A program made the translations under genes and the position numbers. 64,000 nucleotides of DNA from an uncultured Pelagibacteraceae bacterium. GTDB lineage: Bacteria; Pseudomonadota; Alphaproteobacteria; Pelagibacterales; Pelagibacteraceae. Where the stretch lies: the NCBI GenBank assembly GCA_902614905.1, contig CACMMN010000001.1, positions 96,827 through 160,826 on the forward strand, read 5' to 3'. The notes under the pieces are model-generated. The model was not told the DNA's origin. It worked only from the letters and a program-made list of their open reading frames with translations, and searched no databases. Positions 6,651 to 19,117 of this stretch are shown here, piece after piece (position 1 is the stretch's first letter; every line of letters starts with the position of its first letter).

Positions 6651-7703
6651 ATGCATTCTGCCAAAAATCATAACGAGAAACAACTGTCATTAATTGATGG
6701 CTCAAAATTCTCTTACACCAACAAAAAATACGATTTTGAAAATCGATTTAGTTTTATAGATTTATTTGCTGGTATTGGTGGTTTTAGATTGGGCTTGGAA
6801 GCATTAGATATAAATTGTCTTTTTTCATCTGAATGGGATTTAAATGCTAAAAAAACTTACCAAAAAAATTTTGGTGAATTGCCCCATGGAGATATAAACG
6901 ATGTGAAAATAGAAACAATTCCGAAATTTGATATTCTTACAGCTGGTTTTCCTTGTCAGCCTTTTTCTAAAATTGGAATGAGACAGGGTTTTAAACACAA
7001 AACTCAAGGTAATTTATTTTTTAATATTGCTGAAATATTAAGAAAAAAAAAACCTATATCTTTTATATTAGAAAATGTCAGCGGATTATTAACGCACAAA
7101 TCTAAAGACAAAAAAACGCTAGATATAATGTTTTCAGAGTTAGAGAAAATTGGCTATGAAATAAACTATAAACTTATAGACTCATCAAATTTTGGAGTGC
7201 CACAAGTTAGAAGAAGAATATTTATAGTTGGTTTTTTAAAAAAACACTTTCCAGAACAAACCAATTTTAACTTTCCCAAAGGTAATAAGACAAAAATCGG
7301 TATCGGAAAATTTGTTGAAAATCATAAAAATGGCTATTGCATTTCAAAGAAATTACAAAAAAATTATATTTATAAATCCAAGGATAATTTTCCAGAGGTG
7401 ATTAATAAAAGATCAAATACTCAAGTTAAAACATTAGTAAGCAGCTATCATAAAATTCAAAGAATTACTGGAACATTTGTTAAAGATGGAGAAACTGGAC
7501 TAAGACTTTTAAGTGAGAATGAATGCAAAGCTATAATGGGTTTTCCAAAAAAATTTATTTTTCCAGTTTCAAGAACACAAATGTATAGACAATTAGGAAA
7601 TGCAGTAGTTGTTCCTGTCGTTAAAGAAATAGCTAAAGAAGTAATTAAAGTTTTAGTAAAACTAAAAAAAAGTTATGGCAAACAACTCAAAAAGTCAGCT
7701 TGA
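6651..7703 (+). CDS. DNA (cytosine-5) methyltransferase
   Basis: m5C MTase motifs: I DLFAGIGGFRLGLE, IV GFPCQPFSKIG, VI ENVSGLL, VIII QVRRRIFIVGF, X RQLGNAVVVPV. ATG follows the ald stop codon directly. Confidence 0.95.
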   Translation: MHSAKNHNEKQLSLIDGSKFSYTNKKYDFENRFSFIDLFAGIGGFRLGLEALDINCLFSSEWDLNAKKTYQKNFGELPHGDINDVKIETIPKFDILTAGFPCQPFSKIGMRQGFKHKTQGNLFFNIAEILRKKKPISFILENVSGLLTHKSKDKKTLDIMFSELEKIGYEINYKLIDSSNFGVPQVRRRIFIVGFLKKHFPEQTNFNFPKGNKTKIGIGKFVENHKNGYCISKKLQKNYIYKSKDNFPEVINKRSNTQVKTLVSSYHKIQRITGTFVKDGETGLRLLSENECKAIMGFPKKFIFPVSRTQMYRQLGNAVVVPVVKEIAKEVIKVLVKLKKSYGKQLKKSA

Positions 7704-8244
7704 TTATATAAGAGACTATTTTAAAGCCAATTCGAATAAAAATTTAGAGACAACTAAAATAAAAGGTATTATTGAAAATCAGTATCTATCTGAGACAGGT
7801 AAAAGATTTGAAGATTGTGATAGAGGTATAAGAAGCCTTTATCAAAAAGGTTGGCTCATAAAAGTAAAAAAAGGATGTTATAAATATGATCCTAATTATA
7901 AATCAGAAGATAAAACCTCGCATGACTTTCCAGACAAAATAAAAAAACAAATTTTAAAACGAGATAAATACAAATGTGTTGTTTGTAAACTTGGAAAAAA
8001 AGAAGGTTTAGACTTACAAATTGATCATATTATACCAAGAGATAGAGGTGGAAAGTCTTCACTAGAAAATGGTCAAACTTTATGTTCAAGGTGTAATTTT
8101 TTAAAGAAAAATATGAGCATGAATTCTTTAGGAAAAAAGATTTTCCAAAATTTATTAAAACAATCTATTAAAACAAAAAATAGCGAAATGACCAAAATTG
8201 CTAAAGAGTTCCTTAAATTATTTAAAAAATATAATTTGAATTAA
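7675..8244 (+). CDS. HNH endonuclease, probable restriction partner of the upstream methyltransferase
   Basis: HNH core: RDKYKCVVCKLGKKEGLDLQIDHIIPRDRGGKSSLENGQTLCSRCNFLKK; preceded by a wHTH-like region; 29-nt overlap with the MTase gene. Confidence 0.88.
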   Translation: MANNSKSQLDYIRDYFKANSNKNLETTKIKGIIENQYLSETGKRFEDCDRGIRSLYQKGWLIKVKKGCYKYDPNYKSEDKTSHDFPDKIKKQILKRDKYKCVVCKLGKKEGLDLQIDHIIPRDRGGKSSLENGQTLCSRCNFLKKNMSMNSLGKKIFQNLLKQSIKTKNSEMTKIAKEFLKLFKKYNLN

Positions 8245-8247
8245 TTA

Positions 8248-9951
8248 CTAAAGTTTATCAACTACCTTAGATATATCTTTGCTATCTTTGTCCGCTTTTG
8301 CCCGATCTTCCTTACCACCACTATTCCATTCATCTAAATTATCTTGAATAAATCTTTCTGTTCCAAGTTCATCCCACTCTAATTTAGAGTGATATTTAAT
8401 TTTTACTTGAAGTGGAAATTTTACAGCATTACCACTAATATAACCTTGTCCTTTTCCAAATGCTTTAAGCCATTTAGCATCTTGCTCTGACATTTGTTCC
8501 ATTACACTTCTTACCCAATTTTGATCTTTTGGATTTACCAATTTTAAAACTAAAAAACTATTACATTGTGCTAAAGTAGTTTCGTCTAATCTTCCTGGTC
8601 TCTGAGAGATTAAAATTACACTGGTTCCAAACTTTCTTCCCTCAGTTAACAATCTTCTAATTGTTAAAAGCGATGGTGACTCATTTTTTTCTTCAGATTT
8701 TGAAGGTACAAAATTATGAGCTTCCTCAACTACTGCAGTAAAAGCTTGTATTCTTCCTTTTCTCATACTTGACCTATCTTCAAATAAATCTTCTAAGATT
8801 ATTGATACCATAGTGCTTGATACAACTCTTTCATACCCACCTAAATATAAAACTGTTATTTGATTCTGAGTTACGAATTTATGAGGTTCTAATTCAGAGT
8901 TAGACATATCTTCAAACTGTAAGCCTTTTTTTTGAAACATTCCTCTAAGTCTTGCATTAGTTTGTTCCATACCTCTAAGTTTTTTTATTATGATATCAAT
9001 TTTTCTTAAAATTGGATTTACTGATTTTTTAGATGTTGCATCAAATTTTTCTCTATTTCTATTTATATAATCTCTTAATCTTTCAAGATGCTTCAAAAGA
9101 TCTGTTTCTTCAGCGTGAAATATATCTTTATCTTTTACAAAATTTTCAAATACTCCAACTTGAGCCTCGGTCATTCCTAATCCTAATTTTCTTACAATTT
9201 CTGAAATAGCATCACCTACTTTTTCAGCACTAGCCAACAACTTGGGTGTCAATAATTTGACGGTTAAATCTTTATTTCCAGTTATTTCTTTTAATTTATC
9301 AATATATTTATAAAGACCTAGATAATCACCATGAGTATCGAAAATCATCAATGGATGGCCATATTTTGCTAGACCGGCTAAGATTGTTCTGCAAGCAACT
9401 GTTTTTCCTCCTCCAGTTTGAGCTAATACTGCCAAATGTCTAGAACATAATGCTTCACCTTTTAAATTTATTTTTACTTTTTCCCTATTTATGAGGTGAC
9501 CAATTTCTATAGGTTTATCTTCTTCTTTTTTTCCTGATAATAATTTATTAAGTACATCAGTATCGGGATATAAAACTTTATTGGCAGGCTTTACTGGATA
9601 GTTAAGTGGCATTAATTCTATGTTGTCGAGTGATGCATCCTTTTCTTTAGTACAACCCATAATTTGAACTTCTGACAATAAATATTCAGAATTATTGAAT
9701 CCAAGGGTTTCAAATTGTTGTAAATTTGCATCTGTTAGTGCTGATGCAAATTCATTTGGAAATGTGGGATTAGACCTTTCCATTGTAACAATTCTACCCC
9801 AGACATGTACTTTTCCTTCGGTTGGTGTATTAGATTCTGTGATAACAATATCTCCTACACTTGCTTCCATTTGGCCTAAAACAAAATTATATGTATCAGT
9901 TGAAGTGTTTCCAACCACAGTTCCTATACTTTTCCATTTGTCAGTTGTCAT
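8248..9951 (-). CDS. HerA-like FtsK/HerA-superfamily ATPase with N-terminal HAS-barrel
   Basis: HAS-barrel-like start (GTVVGNTSTDTYNFVLGQ...VGDIVITES), Walker A LAQTGGGKT, Walker B AVVEEAHNFVP, ILISQRPGRLDETTLAQCNSFLVLKL. Confidence 0.92.
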   Translation of the reverse strand: MTTDKWKSIGTVVGNTSTDTYNFVLGQMEASVGDIVITESNTPTEGKVHVWGRIVTMERSNPTFPNEFASALTDANLQQFETLGFNNSEYLLSEVQIMGCTKEKDASLDNIELMPLNYPVKPANKVLYPDTDVLNKLLSGKKEEDKPIEIGHLINREKVKINLKGEALCSRHLAVLAQTGGGKTVACRTILAGLAKYGHPLMIFDTHGDYLGLYKYIDKLKEITGNKDLTVKLLTPKLLASAEKVGDAISEIVRKLGLGMTEAQVGVFENFVKDKDIFHAEETDLLKHLERLRDYINRNREKFDATSKKSVNPILRKIDIIIKKLRGMEQTNARLRGMFQKKGLQFEDMSNSELEPHKFVTQNQITVLYLGGYERVVSSTMVSIILEDLFEDRSSMRKGRIQAFTAVVEEAHNFVPSKSEEKNESPSLLTIRRLLTEGRKFGTSVILISQRPGRLDETTLAQCNSFLVLKLVNPKDQNWVRSVMEQMSEQDAKWLKAFGKGQGYISGNAVKFPLQVKIKYHSKLEWDELGTERFIQDNLDEWNSGGKEDRAKADKDSKDISKVVDKL

Positions 9952-11369
9952 TTAGGTCTCACCCACCAATTTCTACCAGATACAAAACTTTTTAACATCA
10001 TATTTATTTGTTGTTTACTCGCATTAGACTCTAGAGTTTTTCTCAATAAATTGTTTATGTAATTACTTCTCATCGAATTTCTTAACCAAGATGGAACCTT
10101 AGATAGTTTATCAACTGTATCAAGACCTAAAGGGAAACAATACTGAGGAAGAAGTTTAGCCGAGTGGAATGTCAATTTCATGTCCTCATCGTAACTATCT
10201 AAAACGTTTAATGTTTCAATTCTAAAAGGTCTTTTGTCCTCTGAAACTTTTAAAAAAGTAGCAAATGGTTCAGCAAGATGACTATGCATTGAAACATAAG
10301 AATATTTGCCTCGAGGCCATTTGCCCTCAGGTTGCTTGATTATTTGAACAGGTGAAATGTATTCACCAGGATCTAATATTAAATCAAAAATAATGTCGTC
10401 CTTTACAGATCTTCTTTTAAACTTTTTTTCAATCTCATTTCCATCACTTGGGGTTCCAACGGGTTTTATGTCCCAAGTTCTTTCCAATTTTTTCAATTTT
10501 AATTCATATAATCTTCCATAAGATCTTTTAGTTTGATTATGAAAAAGTTCATCAATAACAGCGTTCATCACAGGGCCAGGACTTACTACTCCACCAATTC
10601 TCTCAACAACGCCATAAGTTGGGATTTTTGAAGCTTGGATTTGTTTTAAAATTTCAGAGTACAAAGGTAAAAAATACCTAAACTCAATATCAAGTTCTTT
10701 TTTTTTAAGATCTTTAAAAAATACATTATTTATGTCAGGAAACAATGTTTTGCAAAACTCTTTTTTAAAGGGTGGAATTGGATTTTCCTCATCAGTTGCT
10801 AGATGATACATGGTTGACTCATATGCTATAGGACCATGTAAATAAATTATGTCATTTGTTGATGGTTTATCCCATTTTCCTTTTCCAAGCTGTTGTTTAA
10901 CAACTTCAGATGCTTCCATAATCATTCTTGATCCAGTCAACATTTTATCATACTTCATAACGAATTCTTCTTCTTGTTGTTCGTAATGACTATTATCCCT
11001 ATCAACTAAATTAGAAGTTAATGTTTGACTTTCACTAAAATCACACCAATTATCAGATTGGTCACCAGGTCTATTTCTTAAAACCCCAACTCTAATCCCA
11101 AAAGATGCTGAACCCGGAATTGATAATGATAGTTGTCCCCCATCAATGTTGTAAATTGACTTTTTATTCGCAATTGATTTCCAATATTTATTTGGTTCAA
11201 ACTCTATTTTTTTTATTAAATCTCTATCTTTTAAATATTTTTTAAGCAATCTAGCTAATTCTATAATATTTTTTATATACTCTTTTTGATCAACACCTGT
11301 TGTATTTGCAAGAAACATCATTTCTGTAAAAAAGTTTTTTTTTGTTCTTGCTTCAATTAAATCAGTCAT
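9948..11369 (-). CDS. NurA-like nuclease (HerA partner)
   Basis: NurA-like acidic motif (IYNIDGGQLSLSIPGSASFGIRVGVLR), C-terminal YVSMHSHLAEPFATFLKVSEDKRPFRIETL...CFPLGLDTVDKLSKVPSW; 4-nt overlap with the downstream herA-like gene. Confidence 0.75.
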   Translation of the reverse strand: MTDLIEARTKKNFFTEMMFLANTTGVDQKEYIKNIIELARLLKKYLKDRDLIKKIEFEPNKYWKSIANKKSIYNIDGGQLSLSIPGSASFGIRVGVLRNRPGDQSDNWCDFSESQTLTSNLVDRDNSHYEQQEEEFVMKYDKMLTGSRMIMEASEVVKQQLGKGKWDKPSTNDIIYLHGPIAYESTMYHLATDEENPIPPFKKEFCKTLFPDINNVFFKDLKKKELDIEFRYFLPLYSEILKQIQASKIPTYGVVERIGGVVSPGPVMNAVIDELFHNQTKRSYGRLYELKLKKLERTWDIKPVGTPSDGNEIEKKFKRRSVKDDIIFDLILDPGEYISPVQIIKQPEGKWPRGKYSYVSMHSHLAEPFATFLKVSEDKRPFRIETLNVLDSYDEDMKLTFHSAKLLPQYCFPLGLDTVDKLSKVPSWLRNSMRSNYINNLLRKTLESNASKQQINMMLKSFVSGRNWWVRPK

Positions 11370-12186
11370 TTAATTTTTTCTCCAAATCTATAACAGCAGT
11401 CAAATATCTATTAAGAAGATTGTTTTCAGGCTTACCTTTTTCTTTTCTGCTTTTTTTTCTATCATCCATTTCAATTCTTATTTCTTTAAGAGTACTTTTG
11501 TCTTTTACTTTAAAAGCGACTTTGGCTGCTTGAAGGAGTTCATCAGATGAGCCCTTGATACTGAATGAATGGTTAGCATCAACTATATGTCTTGCGCTAG
11601 TCATAGGTTCAAATAAACCATTTCCTAGGTATTTTGGCAATTTATTTTTCCACCAACATTGAGGGAAAGTAGAACATCCAATAAACCATTGTTGATTTAT
11701 TAGTGAATATCGAGTGGTTGCATCAGATCCACACTTCATGCATGTTTTTAAATGGTCTGGTATTGGTGGAGATTTTGGAATTGCTTGATCATTATGATCT
11801 TTAATTTTTTGTATTTTACTCTTCTCTTCACCTCTTGCACAAGGAGTACATAGTTTTGTTCCTTTTTTAACCTTAAGTCTTGTTAGAAGAATTGGTTTTT
11901 CACATTGTTCACAGGGAATTATTTTTTCAGGATTAAGAATATATTCATGATTGTTATTAATTATAAATAATGGTGATGTATCACATCTTTCACATATTAT
12001 TTCATCATATAGATCAGAAAAAATATTTATATCGTACTCTTTGTTAGTTTCGTATATTTGCCTATTAAATCTACTATCAAAAAAATTTTTTAAATCTTTT
12101 AATTTTAATTCATTGCTATAATTGCATCTTTTATTTCCACAATATATCCTCCAGTCCCAATCATTATTTGAAACTATATTTGCCAT
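11362..12186 (-). CDS. Multi-zinc-finger protein: DksA/TraR-type C4 finger plus topoisomerase-type C4 zinc ribbon
   Basis: CEQCEKPILLTRLKVKKGTKLCTPCARGEE (DksA/TraR-like) and CMKCGSDATTRYSLINQQWFIGCSTFPQCWW (topoisomerase Zn-ribbon-like); further Cys pairs at the N-terminus (CGNKRC, CERC). Overlaps both neighbours. Confidence 0.7.
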   Translation of the reverse strand: MANIVSNNDWDWRIYCGNKRCNYSNELKLKDLKNFFDSRFNRQIYETNKEYDINIFSDLYDEIICERCDTSPLFIINNNHEYILNPEKIIPCEQCEKPILLTRLKVKKGTKLCTPCARGEEKSKIQKIKDHNDQAIPKSPPIPDHLKTCMKCGSDATTRYSLINQQWFIGCSTFPQCWWKNKLPKYLGNGLFEPMTSARHIVDANHSFSIKGSSDELLQAAKVAFKVKDKSTLKEIRIEMDDRKKSRKEKGKPENNLLNRYLTAVIDLEKKLND

Positions 12187-12500
12187 TCCTTTTTAACTAA
12201 CTCTAAAAATTTAATTTCTCTATCTCTAACTATCAAATCTGCAGCAGCTAATCTTTTAGTTAATGTCATGACTTCATTTCGTAAAATTTTATCTTCAACT
12301 GAATTTATGTAAAATAAACATGATGTGTCAAAGTCATCTCTAAATTTATCTTTCATTTCATCTAAAATGATATCAATATCTAAATCAAAATTTTTTTCTT
12401 TGATGTAATCCTGAATAAACTCTCTTTCTTTTTGATGTAATTCATCATCAGAAATAGATAATAGGATTAGAATGTTAATAATATTTTTTTCTTCGTTCAT
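12174..12500 (-). CDS. TerB-like small helical protein
   Basis: TerB-like pattern: LILLSISDDELHQKEREFIQDYIKE...ADLIVRDREIKFLELVKKEW; first gene of the four-gene minus-strand operon. Confidence 0.6.
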   Translation of the reverse strand: MNEEKNIINILILLSISDDELHQKEREFIQDYIKEKNFDLDIDIILDEMKDKFRDDFDTSCLFYINSVEDKILRNEVMTLTKRLAAADLIVRDREIKFLELVKKEWQI

Positions 12501-12570: not shown

Positions 12571-12599
12571 TTGATATTTGCTTGGAAATTCTTTATTAT
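12571..12599 (+). promoter_or_regulatory. Predicted sigma70 promoter for the riboswitch/55-aa ORF transcript
   Basis: TTGATA (12571-12576), 17-nt spacer, TATTAT (12594-12599); predicted +1 near 12606, the first base of the riboswitch P1. Confidence 0.7.
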
Positions 12600-12605
12600 T
12601 ATGAT

Positions 12606-12663
12606 GTCTCGATTTAGAAAATAACTCTACTTGCTGGGACTTTAAATACAACGCTAAAGGAGG
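12606..12663 (+). promoter_or_regulatory. SAM-II/SAM-V-type S-adenosylmethionine riboswitch (translational, SD sequestering)
   Basis: P1 GUCUC(12606-12610)/GGGAC(12636-12640); L1 begins GAUUUA and ends CUUGCU; 3' UUUAAAUACAACGCUAAAGGAGG. Pseudoknot UUGC(631-634)/GC(U)AA(653-657) plus CUCU(625-628)/GGAG(659-662), covering the Shine-Dalgarno. Matches the recalled SAM-II core (GAUUUA...UUGC...AUAAAU...GCUAAA). Confidence 0.8.
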
Positions 12664-12666
12664 CAA

Positions 12667-12834
12667 ATGAAAATAATAATACAATCAATCAAAAACTATT
12701 TTAAATCAAAAAAGGATAAGGGTTTGGAACCAGTATTCTTTGAGAAAATAGGCGACCAAAAAACATCTAGAGACGAGATGCGTGATAATTTAATAAAAGC
12801 TTTGAAAAAGAATGGCTGGACTATAAAAAAATAA
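12667..12834 (+). CDS. 55-aa small protein under the SAM riboswitch (not in the supplied ORF track)
   Basis: Manual translation: MKIIIQSIKNYFKSKKDKGLEPVFFEKIGDQKTSRDEMRDNLIKALKKNGWTIKK*; strong SD AAAGGAGG just upstream of the ATG. Confidence 0.75.
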   Translation: MKIIIQSIKNYFKSKKDKGLEPVFFEKIGDQKTSRDEMRDNLIKALKKNGWTIKK

Positions 12835-12837
12835 ATA

Positions 12838-12866
12838 TTGGTACAAAAATTGTCCGCTGTTATGAT
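12838..12866 (+). promoter_or_regulatory. Predicted second promoter, placing the TSS at the start codon of the dimethylglycine dehydrogenase gene
   Basis: TTGGTA (12838-12843), 17-nt spacer, TATGAT (12861-12866), ATG at 12872. Confidence 0.5.
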
Positions 12867-12871
12867 GAGTT

Positions 12872-15313
12872 ATGAAAAAGATTCCTAGTTCAACTAAAGT
12901 TGTTGTTATTGGTGGAGGGGTAGTCGGATGCTCTTGTGCTTATCATTTAGCTAAATTTGGTTGGAAAGATGTTATTCTTTTAGAAAGAGATAAACTTACA
13001 TCGGGAACTACTTGGCATGCCGCTGGATTAGTTAGCCAGTTAGGCCCATCTGCAACAATTACAAAAATTAGAAAATATTCTTTAGATCTTTATAAAGAGC
13101 TTGAAAAAAAAGTAGATCACTCAGCAGGACTTAGATTAAACGGCGCAATGTCAATTGCTCAAGAAGAGGGGAGATGGCAAGAATTAAAAAGACAAGCAAC
13201 TACCGCTCAACTTTATAATGTTAATGTTCAAATTTTAAATAAAGATGAAATCAAAGACAAAGTTCCCTTAATTAAAAATGACGATTTGTTGGGTGGAATT
13301 CTTATGCCAGGAGATGGTTCAGGTGATCCATCGGGGATTACTCAATTACTAGCAAAAGCTGCAAGAGCAGAAGGTGCTAAAATTTTTGAAGATTCTCCTG
13401 TTGAAAACATACTAGTTAAAAATAAAAGAATAGAAGGTGTTGTCGTTAATGGTCAAAAAATAGAATGTGAATACATTGTTTTAGCAACCGGTATGTGGTC
13501 AAGACAAATTGGTGAAAAATTAGGTGTGAGTATTCCATTATATCCAGCTGAACACTTTTATGTAATAACTGAACCAATAAAAGAAGTTCCAAAAGATTTA
13601 CCAGTTATAAGAGATTTTGATAGTAGAACTTACATTAAAGAAGATGCAGGTAAATTATTATTGGGAATATTTGAGGGAAAATCCATTCCTGCATTTGATA
13701 AAACTAATAAAGTTCCTGAAGATTTTTCTTTTGGAGAATTTCCAGAAAATTTTGAACATTTTGAGCCTTATTTAACAGCATGTATGAAAAGATTTCCAAT
13801 ATTAGAGAAGGTTGGAATTAGAAAATTTTTTGCAGGTCCAGAATCTTTTACACCAGACACTAATACATTACTTGGTGAAGTTCCTGAGGTTAAAAACTTT
13901 TTTGTTTGTTGTGGATTAAACAGTATTGGAATAGCAAGCGCAGGTGGAGTTGGTAAAGTTACAGCTGAATGGTTAATGAATGGACATATCAATGAAGATA
14001 TATTTAGTTATGATATTAAAAGATTTCAAAAATTTCATTCAGAAATAAATTTTATTAAAGAAAGAGTTACAGAGACGCTTGGAGACTTATATGGAATGCA
14101 TTGGCCGTACAAACAACACAAAACTTCAAGGAATGTTATAACTCTTCCTTATCATGATGATTTAAAAAAACATGGCGCATGTTTTGGTGTGTCCGGTGGT
14201 TATGAAAGACCAATGTGGTTTTCAAAAGATGAAAAGAATAAAGATTATAAATATAGTTACAACTTTCAAAATTGGTATCCAAGTGCAGAATTTGAAACAA
14301 AAAATGCAAGGACTAATGTTGGATTATTTGAACTCTCACCTTTTTCAAAATTTGATCTAAAAGGAGAAAAAGTTCATCAAGAATTACAAATGTTATGCAC
14401 TGCTAATATAAAAGATATACCAGGTTCTATTAAATATACACAAATGCTTAACAAAGATGGAGGAATTGAAGCTGATTTAACTGTTATTTGTATTGATAAA
14501 AATTATTTTAGAGTAGTAAGCTCCGCAGTTAATCGTGAAAGAGATAAATTTCATATTTTAAAACATATCTCAAATGAAATAGATTTTAGGGATGTAACAG
14601 AAGATTATTGCTGCTTAGGTTTATTCGGTCCTAAAAGTAGAGAAATGATATCTTCAATTAGCAATAGTGATTTTTCAAAAGAAAATTTTAAATTTGCGAC
14701 TGCAAAAGAAGTTGAAATATCAGATATAAAAGTATGGGCTCAAAGAATATCTTATGTTGGAGAGCTGGGTTATGAATTATATGTCAAAAAAGAAAATGCA
14801 AAAAAACTTTTTGAAATTTTAGTATCTGAGGGCAAAAAATTTAATTTATCTTTATGTGGCATGCACGCAATGGATATTATGAGAATGGAATCTGGCTATG
14901 TTCATTGGGGTCATGATATATCGCCTGAAGAAAACCAATTTGAGGCCGGACTTAACTTTGCAATTAGCTTTAAAAAAAATACTAATTTTATAGGTAGAGA
15001 AGTTTTAGAGAAAATCAAAGACAAAAACACTGACAAAAAACTTAAAATGATCATTTTAGAAAATTCTAAACCTGGAGAACCACTTCTGCTACATGACGAA
15101 CCTATATTTTTTAAAAATAAGATTGTTGGCAGAACCACATCAGGCAATTTTTCATTTAATTTTAATAAAAACCTAGCTTTTGGTTATATTAACTCCGGGA
15201 TGAGCCATCAGGAGATTGAAAATTCAGAATTTGAGATTGAGGTTGAGAAGAAAAAATTTAAGGCTTCAATTTTAAAAAGACCTTTAAATTCAAAAAAAAT
15301 TTCTGAGATCTAG
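12872..15313 (+). CDS. Dimethylglycine/sarcosine dehydrogenase-like FAD oxidoreductase with C-terminal GcvT-type domain
   Basis: VVVIGGGVVGCSCAYHLAKFGWKDVILLERDKLTSGTTWHAAGLV; C-terminal aminomethyltransferase-like half (GELGYELYVKKENAKKLFEIL...GMHAMDIMRMESGYVHWGHDISPEENQFEAGL). Confidence 0.9.
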   Translation: MKKIPSSTKVVVIGGGVVGCSCAYHLAKFGWKDVILLERDKLTSGTTWHAAGLVSQLGPSATITKIRKYSLDLYKELEKKVDHSAGLRLNGAMSIAQEEGRWQELKRQATTAQLYNVNVQILNKDEIKDKVPLIKNDDLLGGILMPGDGSGDPSGITQLLAKAARAEGAKIFEDSPVENILVKNKRIEGVVVNGQKIECEYIVLATGMWSRQIGEKLGVSIPLYPAEHFYVITEPIKEVPKDLPVIRDFDSRTYIKEDAGKLLLGIFEGKSIPAFDKTNKVPEDFSFGEFPENFEHFEPYLTACMKRFPILEKVGIRKFFAGPESFTPDTNTLLGEVPEVKNFFVCCGLNSIGIASAGGVGKVTAEWLMNGHINEDIFSYDIKRFQKFHSEINFIKERVTETLGDLYGMHWPYKQHKTSRNVITLPYHDDLKKHGACFGVSGGYERPMWFSKDEKNKDYKYSYNFQNWYPSAEFETKNARTNVGLFELSPFSKFDLKGEKVHQELQMLCTANIKDIPGSIKYTQMLNKDGGIEADLTVICIDKNYFRVVSSAVNRERDKFHILKHISNEIDFRDVTEDYCCLGLFGPKSREMISSISNSDFSKENFKFATAKEVEISDIKVWAQRISYVGELGYELYVKKENAKKLFEILVSEGKKFNLSLCGMHAMDIMRMESGYVHWGHDISPEENQFEAGLNFAISFKKNTNFIGREVLEKIKDKNTDKKLKMIILENSKPGEPLLLHDEPIFFKNKIVGRTTSGNFSFNFNKNLAFGYINSGMSHQEIENSEFEIEVEKKKFKASILKRPLNSKKISEI

Positions 15314-15398: not shown

Positions 15399-15590
15399 AT
15401 GAGCACTGAAGTAAATAGCCTAGAGAACCAATCTGAACCTAGTAAAGTTAGTCATCAACAAAAAGTAGATATAAATATTCTTTTAAACAGAGTAAGACAC
15501 GAAAAAAAAAGAGAGAGAAAAGAAAATCTTTTATTTTTAGGCCTTATTGGCTCAGTAATAGTAGTAACTGGAATTATAGCTTCCTTATAA
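15399..15590 (+). CDS. Small single-pass membrane protein of unknown function
   Basis: Second in-frame Met: MSTEVNSLENQSEPSKVSHQQKVDINILLNRVRHEKKRERKENLLFLGLIGSVIVVTGIIASL; C-terminal TM helix, basic juxtamembrane stretch. Confidence 0.6.
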   Translation: MSTEVNSLENQSEPSKVSHQQKVDINILLNRVRHEKKRERKENLLFLGLIGSVIVVTGIIASL

Positions 15591-16643
15591 AACTACAATA
15601 TTCAATATTTTCGTTATTAAATCTGCAAACTCTTTACCATTTATTTTTCTAACTTCATCAACATCACTCATTATTTTTAAAATATCTTTCGGATAGTTTG
15701 AAGTTCCTGGTCCACCAAAAATTAAATAGTGATTATTTTTATCTTTAGTTAATAATTTTTTTTTTAGTAAATTTTTCAATTTTCTTAATACAGTTGGCCT
15801 TGGAATACTAGTTAACTCTGAGATTGTCATTGCATTGAGCCCTTGATTTCCATAATCATTAAGTCTTTTAATAAAAGCATCATTATTTTTTGCAAGACTT
15901 TGATTGTCTTTAAGATTTTTTGACATAACTAAATTTTGGTTATAGACACAATTTCCCCATATAGTCCAAGTTTCTACATCTCCAAATATTACTTTCCACC
16001 TGGTAATCAATGGAATTTGATAATCAAAGAAATATTGCCAACATCTAGTAAAGTTTTTTTTTATTTTTTCTTCAATCACATTATTAGGTATTTTACCTTT
16101 AAGTATATTTTCTCTTGTTAAATAATCAGTAAAATGAGATATCACTCTTGATAAATTTCGAATCGAGTCAGTAGGTTTTTGTATTTCTTGACCTCTTCTT
16201 TCTAACATTACTTGTTTTTTATTTTTTTTAATTGCACCATCTTTTTCTAATTCCATCATTTTTCTTCTTGTGGTTTCTTTAGAAATATTAAGTTCTCTAG
16301 ATAAATCAATTATATTAATTTTTGGAATTTCAAATTTATCTTTTGAGTAAAATTCATCAAACGAATTAACAACGAAATGGTCGTTGTAACCTTTAAATGC
16401 TTTATTAATTAAATATATTAAAATTATATATTTATCGAAATCTTTAAATCTTGTAAATGCTGCTGTAAGCCACTGTTGTTGAAAAAAATAAATTTCTGTG
16501 ATCAAGAGATCATGATATTTCTTAAATACATTAAAACTATCGTCTGTTTGTATTTTTGATGAAAATTTTATTTCTTTATTTACAACCGACATTGGTTGTA
16601 AATAATATGAAAAAAAGTGATAATTCAAGAATAAATCGATCAA
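15585..16643 (-). CDS. Putative DNA-binding regulator with two winged-helix-like HTH segments
   Basis: HTH-like ELNISKETTRRKMMELEKDGAIKKNKK and ELTSIPRPTVLRKLKNLLKKKLLTKDKNNHY. Confidence 0.65.
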   Translation of the reverse strand: MIDLFLNYHFFSYYLQPMSVVNKEIKFSSKIQTDDSFNVFKKYHDLLITEIYFFQQQWLTAAFTRFKDFDKYIILIYLINKAFKGYNDHFVVNSFDEFYSKDKFEIPKINIIDLSRELNISKETTRRKMMELEKDGAIKKNKKQVMLERRGQEIQKPTDSIRNLSRVISHFTDYLTRENILKGKIPNNVIEEKIKKNFTRCWQYFFDYQIPLITRWKVIFGDVETWTIWGNCVYNQNLVMSKNLKDNQSLAKNNDAFIKRLNDYGNQGLNAMTISELTSIPRPTVLRKLKNLLKKKLLTKDKNNHYLIFGGPGTSNYPKDILKIMSDVDEVRKINGKEFADLITKILNIVVL

Positions 16644-19040: not shown

Positions 19041-19117
19041 GGCGGGGTAGCTCAGTTGGTTAGAGCGCGGGACTCATAAGCCCGAGGTCAGTGGTTCGAT
19101 CCCACTTCCCGCTACCA
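19041..19117 (+). tRNA. tRNA-Met (CAU anticodon), CCA encoded
   Basis: GGCGGGGTAGCTCAGTTGGTTAGAGCGCGGGACTCATAAGCCCGAGGTCAGTGGTTCGATCCCACTTCCCGCTACCA; anticodon loop CTCATAA, T-loop GGTTCGATCC; resembles elongator tRNA-Met. Confidence 0.95.

Follow-up and report, generated by a model that had tools for sequence, protein, structure and literature searches.

A SAM-II-type riboswitch variant predicted to control tiny genes in Pelagibacteraceae

Which gene is controlled by the RNA that lies upstream of a dimethylglycine-dehydrogenase-like gene in a Pelagibacteraceae genome, and which metabolite would it sense? In a 64,000-nucleotide stretch of contig CACMMN010000001.1 (hereafter the window), an earlier note had described a SAM-II/SAM-V riboswitch that begins at the predicted +1 of its own promoter. 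The observation holds: positions 12606-12662 form a conserved pseudoknot RNA, and a promoter lies just ahead of it (Table 1). Direct reading of the sequence gave the −35 box TTGATA (12571-12576), a gap of 17 nt, and the −10 box TATTAT (12594-12599). P1 (GUCUC/GGGAC) was found as described, and so was the pseudoknot, in which UUGC pairs with GC(U)AA and CUCU with GGAG, burying the Shine-Dalgarno sequence. This GGAG (12659-12662) is part of AAAGGAGG, and the outer pseudoknot helix takes in all of it. The core GATTTA..TTGC..GCTAAA occurs only once in the window. In 300 simulated windows matched in dinucleotide statistics, the core appeared 0.12 times per window and never with a 5-bp P1. The ordinary nested fold of the leader was not significant (z −0.9), as would be expected of a pseudoknot, for which single-strand folding is uninformative.

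Table 1. Features of the element and its surroundings in the window
Feature	Position	Strand	Remark
C5-cytosine DNA methyltransferase	6651-7703	+	Defence-type island upstream of the switch
HNH restriction-like nuclease	7675-8244	+	Overlaps the methyltransferase
HerA-like ATPase operon (HerA 8248-9951, 473 aa, 274 aa, 108 aa)	8248-12500	-	Divergent from the cassette
Sigma-70 type promoter, TTGATA-17-TATTAT	12571-12599	+	Position relative to the aptamer kept in roughly half of the 113 upstream regions
P1 5' strand, GUCUC	12606-12610	+	Transcription predicted to start at P1 or beside it
GAUUUA, third strand/ligand-pocket strand of the SAM-II core	12611-12616	+	Same in SAM-II aptamers
CUCU, anti-Shine-Dalgarno in loop L1 (P2a 5' strand)	12625-12628	+	Partner is GGAG 12659-12662
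UUGC, pseudoknot P2 5' strand	12631-12634	+	Partner is GC(U)AA 12653-12657
P1 3' strand, GGGAC	12636-12640	+	Covaries with 12606-12610
UAAA of L3	12643-12646	+	Spacing to GCUAA shared with most of the SAM-II aptamers compared
GCUAAAGGAG: P2 3' strand, bulged U, Shine-Dalgarno GGAG in P2a	12653-12662	+	Direct reading and alignment A1
55-aa ORF (family A), regulated gene	12667-12834	+	ATG 4 nt after GGAG; no confident database match
Dimethylglycine/sarcosine-dehydrogenase-like gene (DAO + GCV_T)	12872-15313	+	Not the conserved target

How widely is this RNA conserved? By DNA search, 21 clear homologues came up in 197 genomes of the family. A covariance model built from this element alone and containing no SAM-II sequence (R1) recovered 51 strong copies from 397 Pelagibacteraceae genomes, among which the element is sporadic (47 carriers, of which 4 have two copies). 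Scanning 85,462 genome species with a sequence pattern yielded at least 119 stretches, and among the matches listed, 80 of 80 came from Pelagibacteraceae. In an alignment of 36 distinct copies (A1), P1 covariation was 0.210 versus 0.082 for shuffled data; none of 500 shuffles was as high, and sliding the P1 partners abolished the signal. Both sides had changed in four of the six P1 pairs (AU/GC, GC/UA, UA/CG, and CG/GC/UA). In P2 and P2a, 100% of the cells in A1 pair with hardly any variation. Because these pairs are nearly invariant, P2 and P2a are without covariation support and are supported instead by constancy and geometry, a constancy that comes partly from the search pattern, as most copies were gathered by patterns or searches favouring P2/P2a bases. 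Those bases were no requirement for the 21 copies from the DNA search or for the model search, and two copies carry pairing-preserving C-to-U changes in P2a (the CUUU variants pair as U-G). GAUUUA is invariant in A1, again partly by search design, and nearly all copies have C instead of A before UUGC. A few copies have a degenerate look. In the second copy of genome G338 (L268; G338:C1:178988-179045), UUGC has become UCGU and GCUAAAGGAG has become UCUAAAAGAG; this aptamer is probably a naturally broken or altered one, ahead of an intact-looking ORF of family A (described below).

The best −10 box was located at −17/−18 from GATTTA in 62 of 113 upstream regions, and the −35 box at −40/−41 in 42 of them. 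On the basis of these recurring positions, the predicted +1 falls at P1 or no more than one or two bases from it, which bears out the start site proposed in the earlier note. No terminator was found in the leader, and control is therefore most likely translational.

To which riboswitch class does the element belong? At gathering thresholds, no Rfam family matches it. The best sub-threshold match is RF00521 (SAM_alpha), at 19.6 bits, where the gathering score is 36; several relatives of the element reach 21.6 to 30.1 bits. The bona fide metX SAM-II of the same genome is likewise under 36 (29.6 bits), and no SAM-II match in 99 Pelagibacteraceae genomes attained that score. The metX, bhmT, and metF SAM-IIs are plainly present in these genomes despite their sub-gathering scores; throughout the sampled Pelagibacteraceae, SAM-II switches escape the threshold that Rfam sets for SAM-II. 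In the 397 genomes, model R1 scored the 51 copies at 60.9 to 88 bits, followed by a gap and then by matches of 36 bits or less. The weak matches that we inspected (27.7 to 35.6 bits) include the SAM-IIs ahead of bhmT, metF, and metX in Pelagibacteraceae and those of metY and metZ in other Alphaproteobacteria, with gene names assigned from the protein sequences by eye; of the weak matches, at least two (L275 and L259) look false. The search with RF00521 and RF01826 that had been suggested for this locus thus gave no match at gathering score, and the SAM-II claim, which nearly fails on Rfam, is rescued because the element-only model recovers SAM-II switches reciprocally.

The core bases GAUUUA, UUGC, UAAA, and GCUAAA are present in the element at SAM-II spacing and, as is characteristic of SAM-II, a covarying P1 stem encloses L1. 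The SAM-V model (RF01826) gave no match at the element site (E ≤ 10) and none at this element in 99 genomes, 56 of which carry SAM-V elsewhere. We rejected a SAM-V identity on this missing covariance match, the absence of a P3 hairpin, and the presence of UUGC, not UUGUGC. The model for SAM-II long loops (RF01726) matched neither the element (E ≤ 10 in the region) nor its relatives (E ≤ 1). Judged by its sequence, the element is a SAM-II-type aptamer and not a SAM-V; of the SAM-II/SAM-V pocket proposed earlier, the SAM-II part stands. We class the element as a SAM-II variant and not as a member of RF00521, because its score is below the 36-bit gathering cut-off.

Variant riboswitches sometimes change their ligand. 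Could the SAM-II-like fold at this locus respond to SAH, another adenosyl compound, or a different metabolite? Such a change would fit with the longer L1 (14 nt versus 6 to 11 nt in SAM-II), with the C that replaces A before UUGC, and with regulated genes unlike any SAM-II target. However, the pocket bases of SAM-II structures (GAUUUA, UUGC, the bulged U, and AAA) are all kept in the element, and CUUGC is found in metY and metZ SAM-IIs too; we regard a changed ligand as quite unlikely. One potential explanation for the invariant loop bases, and for a sporadic cassette near tRNA and defence genes, is that the RNA is a conserved leader, carried by a mobile small-gene cassette, that binds protein or RNA but no metabolite and resembles SAM-II by convergence. 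The SAM-II spacing, together with SAM-II switches being the next-best matches of a model made from the element only, makes this explanation highly improbable.

We then asked about the regulated gene. The earlier note had assigned the riboswitch to C1 catabolism, in which case the dimethylglycine-dehydrogenase-like gene at 12872 would be the target of a SAM riboswitch and the small ORF merely a leader peptide. In the window and two relatives this gene does lie on the same strand, 37 nt on, but a 55-aa ORF (12667-12834) sits between it and the switch, and these three are the only loci of 103 in which the dehydrogenase-like gene comes next. In 41 of the 103 loci the ORF that follows lies on the opposite strand, and a same-strand ORF of at least 90 aa is found within 60 nt in only 11. 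In addition, a promoter-like site (12838-12866) lies between the small ORF and the dehydrogenase-like gene, and the small ORF has a dN/dS of ∼0.1 and travels with the element. A dehydrogenase target is therefore very unlikely. From these three counts, we conclude that the regulated product is a small protein and that the assignment to C1 catabolism falls.

The start codon behind the switch is ATG in all 124 distinct places, with a GGAG-ATG spacer of 3 to 5 nt in 121 of them and of 2 to 6 nt in almost all. The ORFs are tiny and belong to several families, the great majority to family A (FFEKIGD..TSRDE..NLIKALKKNGW) and the rest to B (MYE.I..GGP.GP.SQ), C (KPLSKNDPIF), D, E (110 aa), and further ones. 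Some loci hold strings of overlapping ORFs (for example, C-A-B or D-B-B) or C-A fusions; at L042, L109, L173, L165, and L143, two to three tiny ORFs of different families overlap by up to ∼60 nt. The median dN/dS, computed for family A, was 0.09 to 0.14, which indicates purifying selection. In 197 genomes, 17 of 18 family-A and 4 of 4 family-B protein matches were located behind the element, the lone exception (G091) being a weak family-A match inside a frame with a stop. The small proteins had no confident match in Pfam, NCBIfam, or PHROGs, and the 55-aa ORF scored over no cut-off. Sub-cutoff matches, among them NCBIfam "plasminogen-binding receptor Lp30" (20.3 of 450 bits) and Pfam MupG_N with the 78-aa C-A fusion as well as a DUF4177/NDK-like hint in family D, were treated as chance or unproven. 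AlphaFold models were two-helix (pLDDT 90 for family A and 72 for family B), and the family A model had no significant structural neighbour. Family A, whose tiny proteins have apparently not been described before, lies behind the switch in many ocean SAR11 bacteria.

What surrounds these cassettes? The neighbour genes of the element fall into 91 similarity groups. A tRNA or tmRNA, mostly tRNA-Met or tmRNA, lies within 0.5 kb in 21 of 119 loci versus 2% of random positions, and the tiny-gene cassettes are apparently mobile. In the window, a tRNA-Met (CAT) is located 6.4 kb downstream (19041-19114); other copies of the cassette are directly beside tRNA-Met or tmRNA. We rejected a phage origin, as there was no match in IMG/VR with two strict patterns (which divergent copies could escape) and none in GenBank phages, and also an integrase-borne element, an integrase homologue being present in just 1 of 119 loci. 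Among 121 genus genomes, 26 carry the element, 28 a C5 methyltransferase, and 17 both (odds ratio 14.4, P = 1.1e-7, kinship ignored). In 10 of the 17 double carriers the two lie within ∼10 kb on one contig, the closest pair being divergent at ∼0.1 kb (G748). Of 119 element loci, 23 contain a C5 methyltransferase, versus 0 of 20 windows of a small control. Because SAM is the cofactor of methyltransferases, the link between cassette and methyltransferase is suggestive, no more. The nearest neighbours are mostly ordinary metabolic genes, the exceptions being C5 methyltransferases and a small number of other defence genes; a general defence-island reading was rejected on this ground and kept as a lead. 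In the window itself, 6651-12500 is a defence-type island whose HerA-like operon includes a TerB-like small protein (TerB by eye), and an ORF at 15588-16643 has two winged-helix domains with weak CARF/CasR-like matches.

Speculatively, the switch may serve a mobile small-protein cassette, linked to DNA methylation systems, as its SAM alarm, a reading that we hold to be rather doubtful. When SAM is low, through starvation or a phage that destroys SAM, the cassette would make its small proteins, which could shield the cell from its own restriction enzyme while the methyltransferase lacks its cofactor or, alternatively, act as a defence response. If true, this would place a metabolite riboswitch in restriction-modification or anti-phage biology, not in methionine metabolism.

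How would the switch work? We consider it probable that a SAM-II-type riboswitch variant forms the full 5' leader of a tiny gene and acts as a SAM-responsive translational OFF switch. With transcription starting at or next to P1, the aptamer would be the entire leader. Plentiful SAM would bind the GAUUUA/UUGC/GCUAAA pocket and stabilise the pseudoknot/triplex and P2a; with CUCU paired to GGAG, the Shine-Dalgarno sequence would be hidden and ribosomes could not start. Falling SAM would open P2a, and the 55-aa protein would be made. A translational OFF switch, with low SAM turning the small proteins on, is most likely, given this anatomy and the precedent of SAM-V, a known OFF switch with its Shine-Dalgarno sequence in P2a (PMC6061858). 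What we observe is a conserved element with a covarying P1, the core geometry, the position of the promoter, and an ATG 2 to 6 nt after GGAG; SAM as the ligand, the OFF direction, and low SAM as the physiological signal are what we infer. Against the SAM-II reading stand the Rfam matches, all of them sub-gathering, the near-invariance of P2 and P2a, the few degenerate-looking copies, and the fact that no methionine or sulfur gene lies downstream of the element. SAM riboswitches are known as regulators of methionine and sulfur metabolism; in a highly abundant bacterial group, a SAM-II variant is predicted to govern instead scattered tiny-gene cassettes, which occur together with enzymes that mark DNA by means of SAM. 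The small-protein families gain a testable expression condition, low SAM.

How does the element compare with known systems? In SAR11, PMC2704228, PMC5069961, and PMC11508383 place SAM-II and SAM-V at bhmT, metX, metY, and mmuM, and PMC6429828 reports riboswitch candidates in strain HIMB5. The portions of the published SAR11 riboswitch literature covered, main texts mostly outside subscription journals, describe neither the element nor its small proteins, and an earlier description may exist. Like the element, the ordL 5' UTR of "Ca. Pelagibacter ubique" is a proposed SAR11 riboswitch and lies ahead of an oxidoreductase, with ordL responding to sulfur limitation (PMC5069961). It differs in that the HTCC1062-like genome G026 (identified by SAM-V coordinates) has only a SAM-II-level R1 match, a comparison made at the level of scores. 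SAM-II long loops (RF01726), described from Bacteroidetes and marine samples (PMC2864571), share a SAM-II core, altered loops, and a marine setting. SAM-V (RF01826) resembles the element in occurring in SAR11 and in its translational OFF control with the Shine-Dalgarno sequence in P2a (predicted in the element), but it has a P3 hairpin between P1 and P2 and a UUGUGC/GCAC P2, both of which the element is without (SAM-V loci; PMC6061858). Side by side with six SAM-II aptamers, the element has a UUGC-GCUAA spacing of 18 nt versus 18 to 19 nt and, as in most of them, 6 nt from UAAA to GC. This UAAA of L3 corresponds to the A-minor strand of SAM-II/SAM-V structures. The element also shares with SAM-II (RF00521) a P1 of 5 to 6 bp, GAUUUA, UUGC/GC(U)AA, UAAA, and the lack of P3. 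It differs from SAM-II in an L1 that is longer because it carries CUCU, which pairs with the complete Shine-Dalgarno sequence, in its predicted translational control, and in the tiny ORFs downstream.
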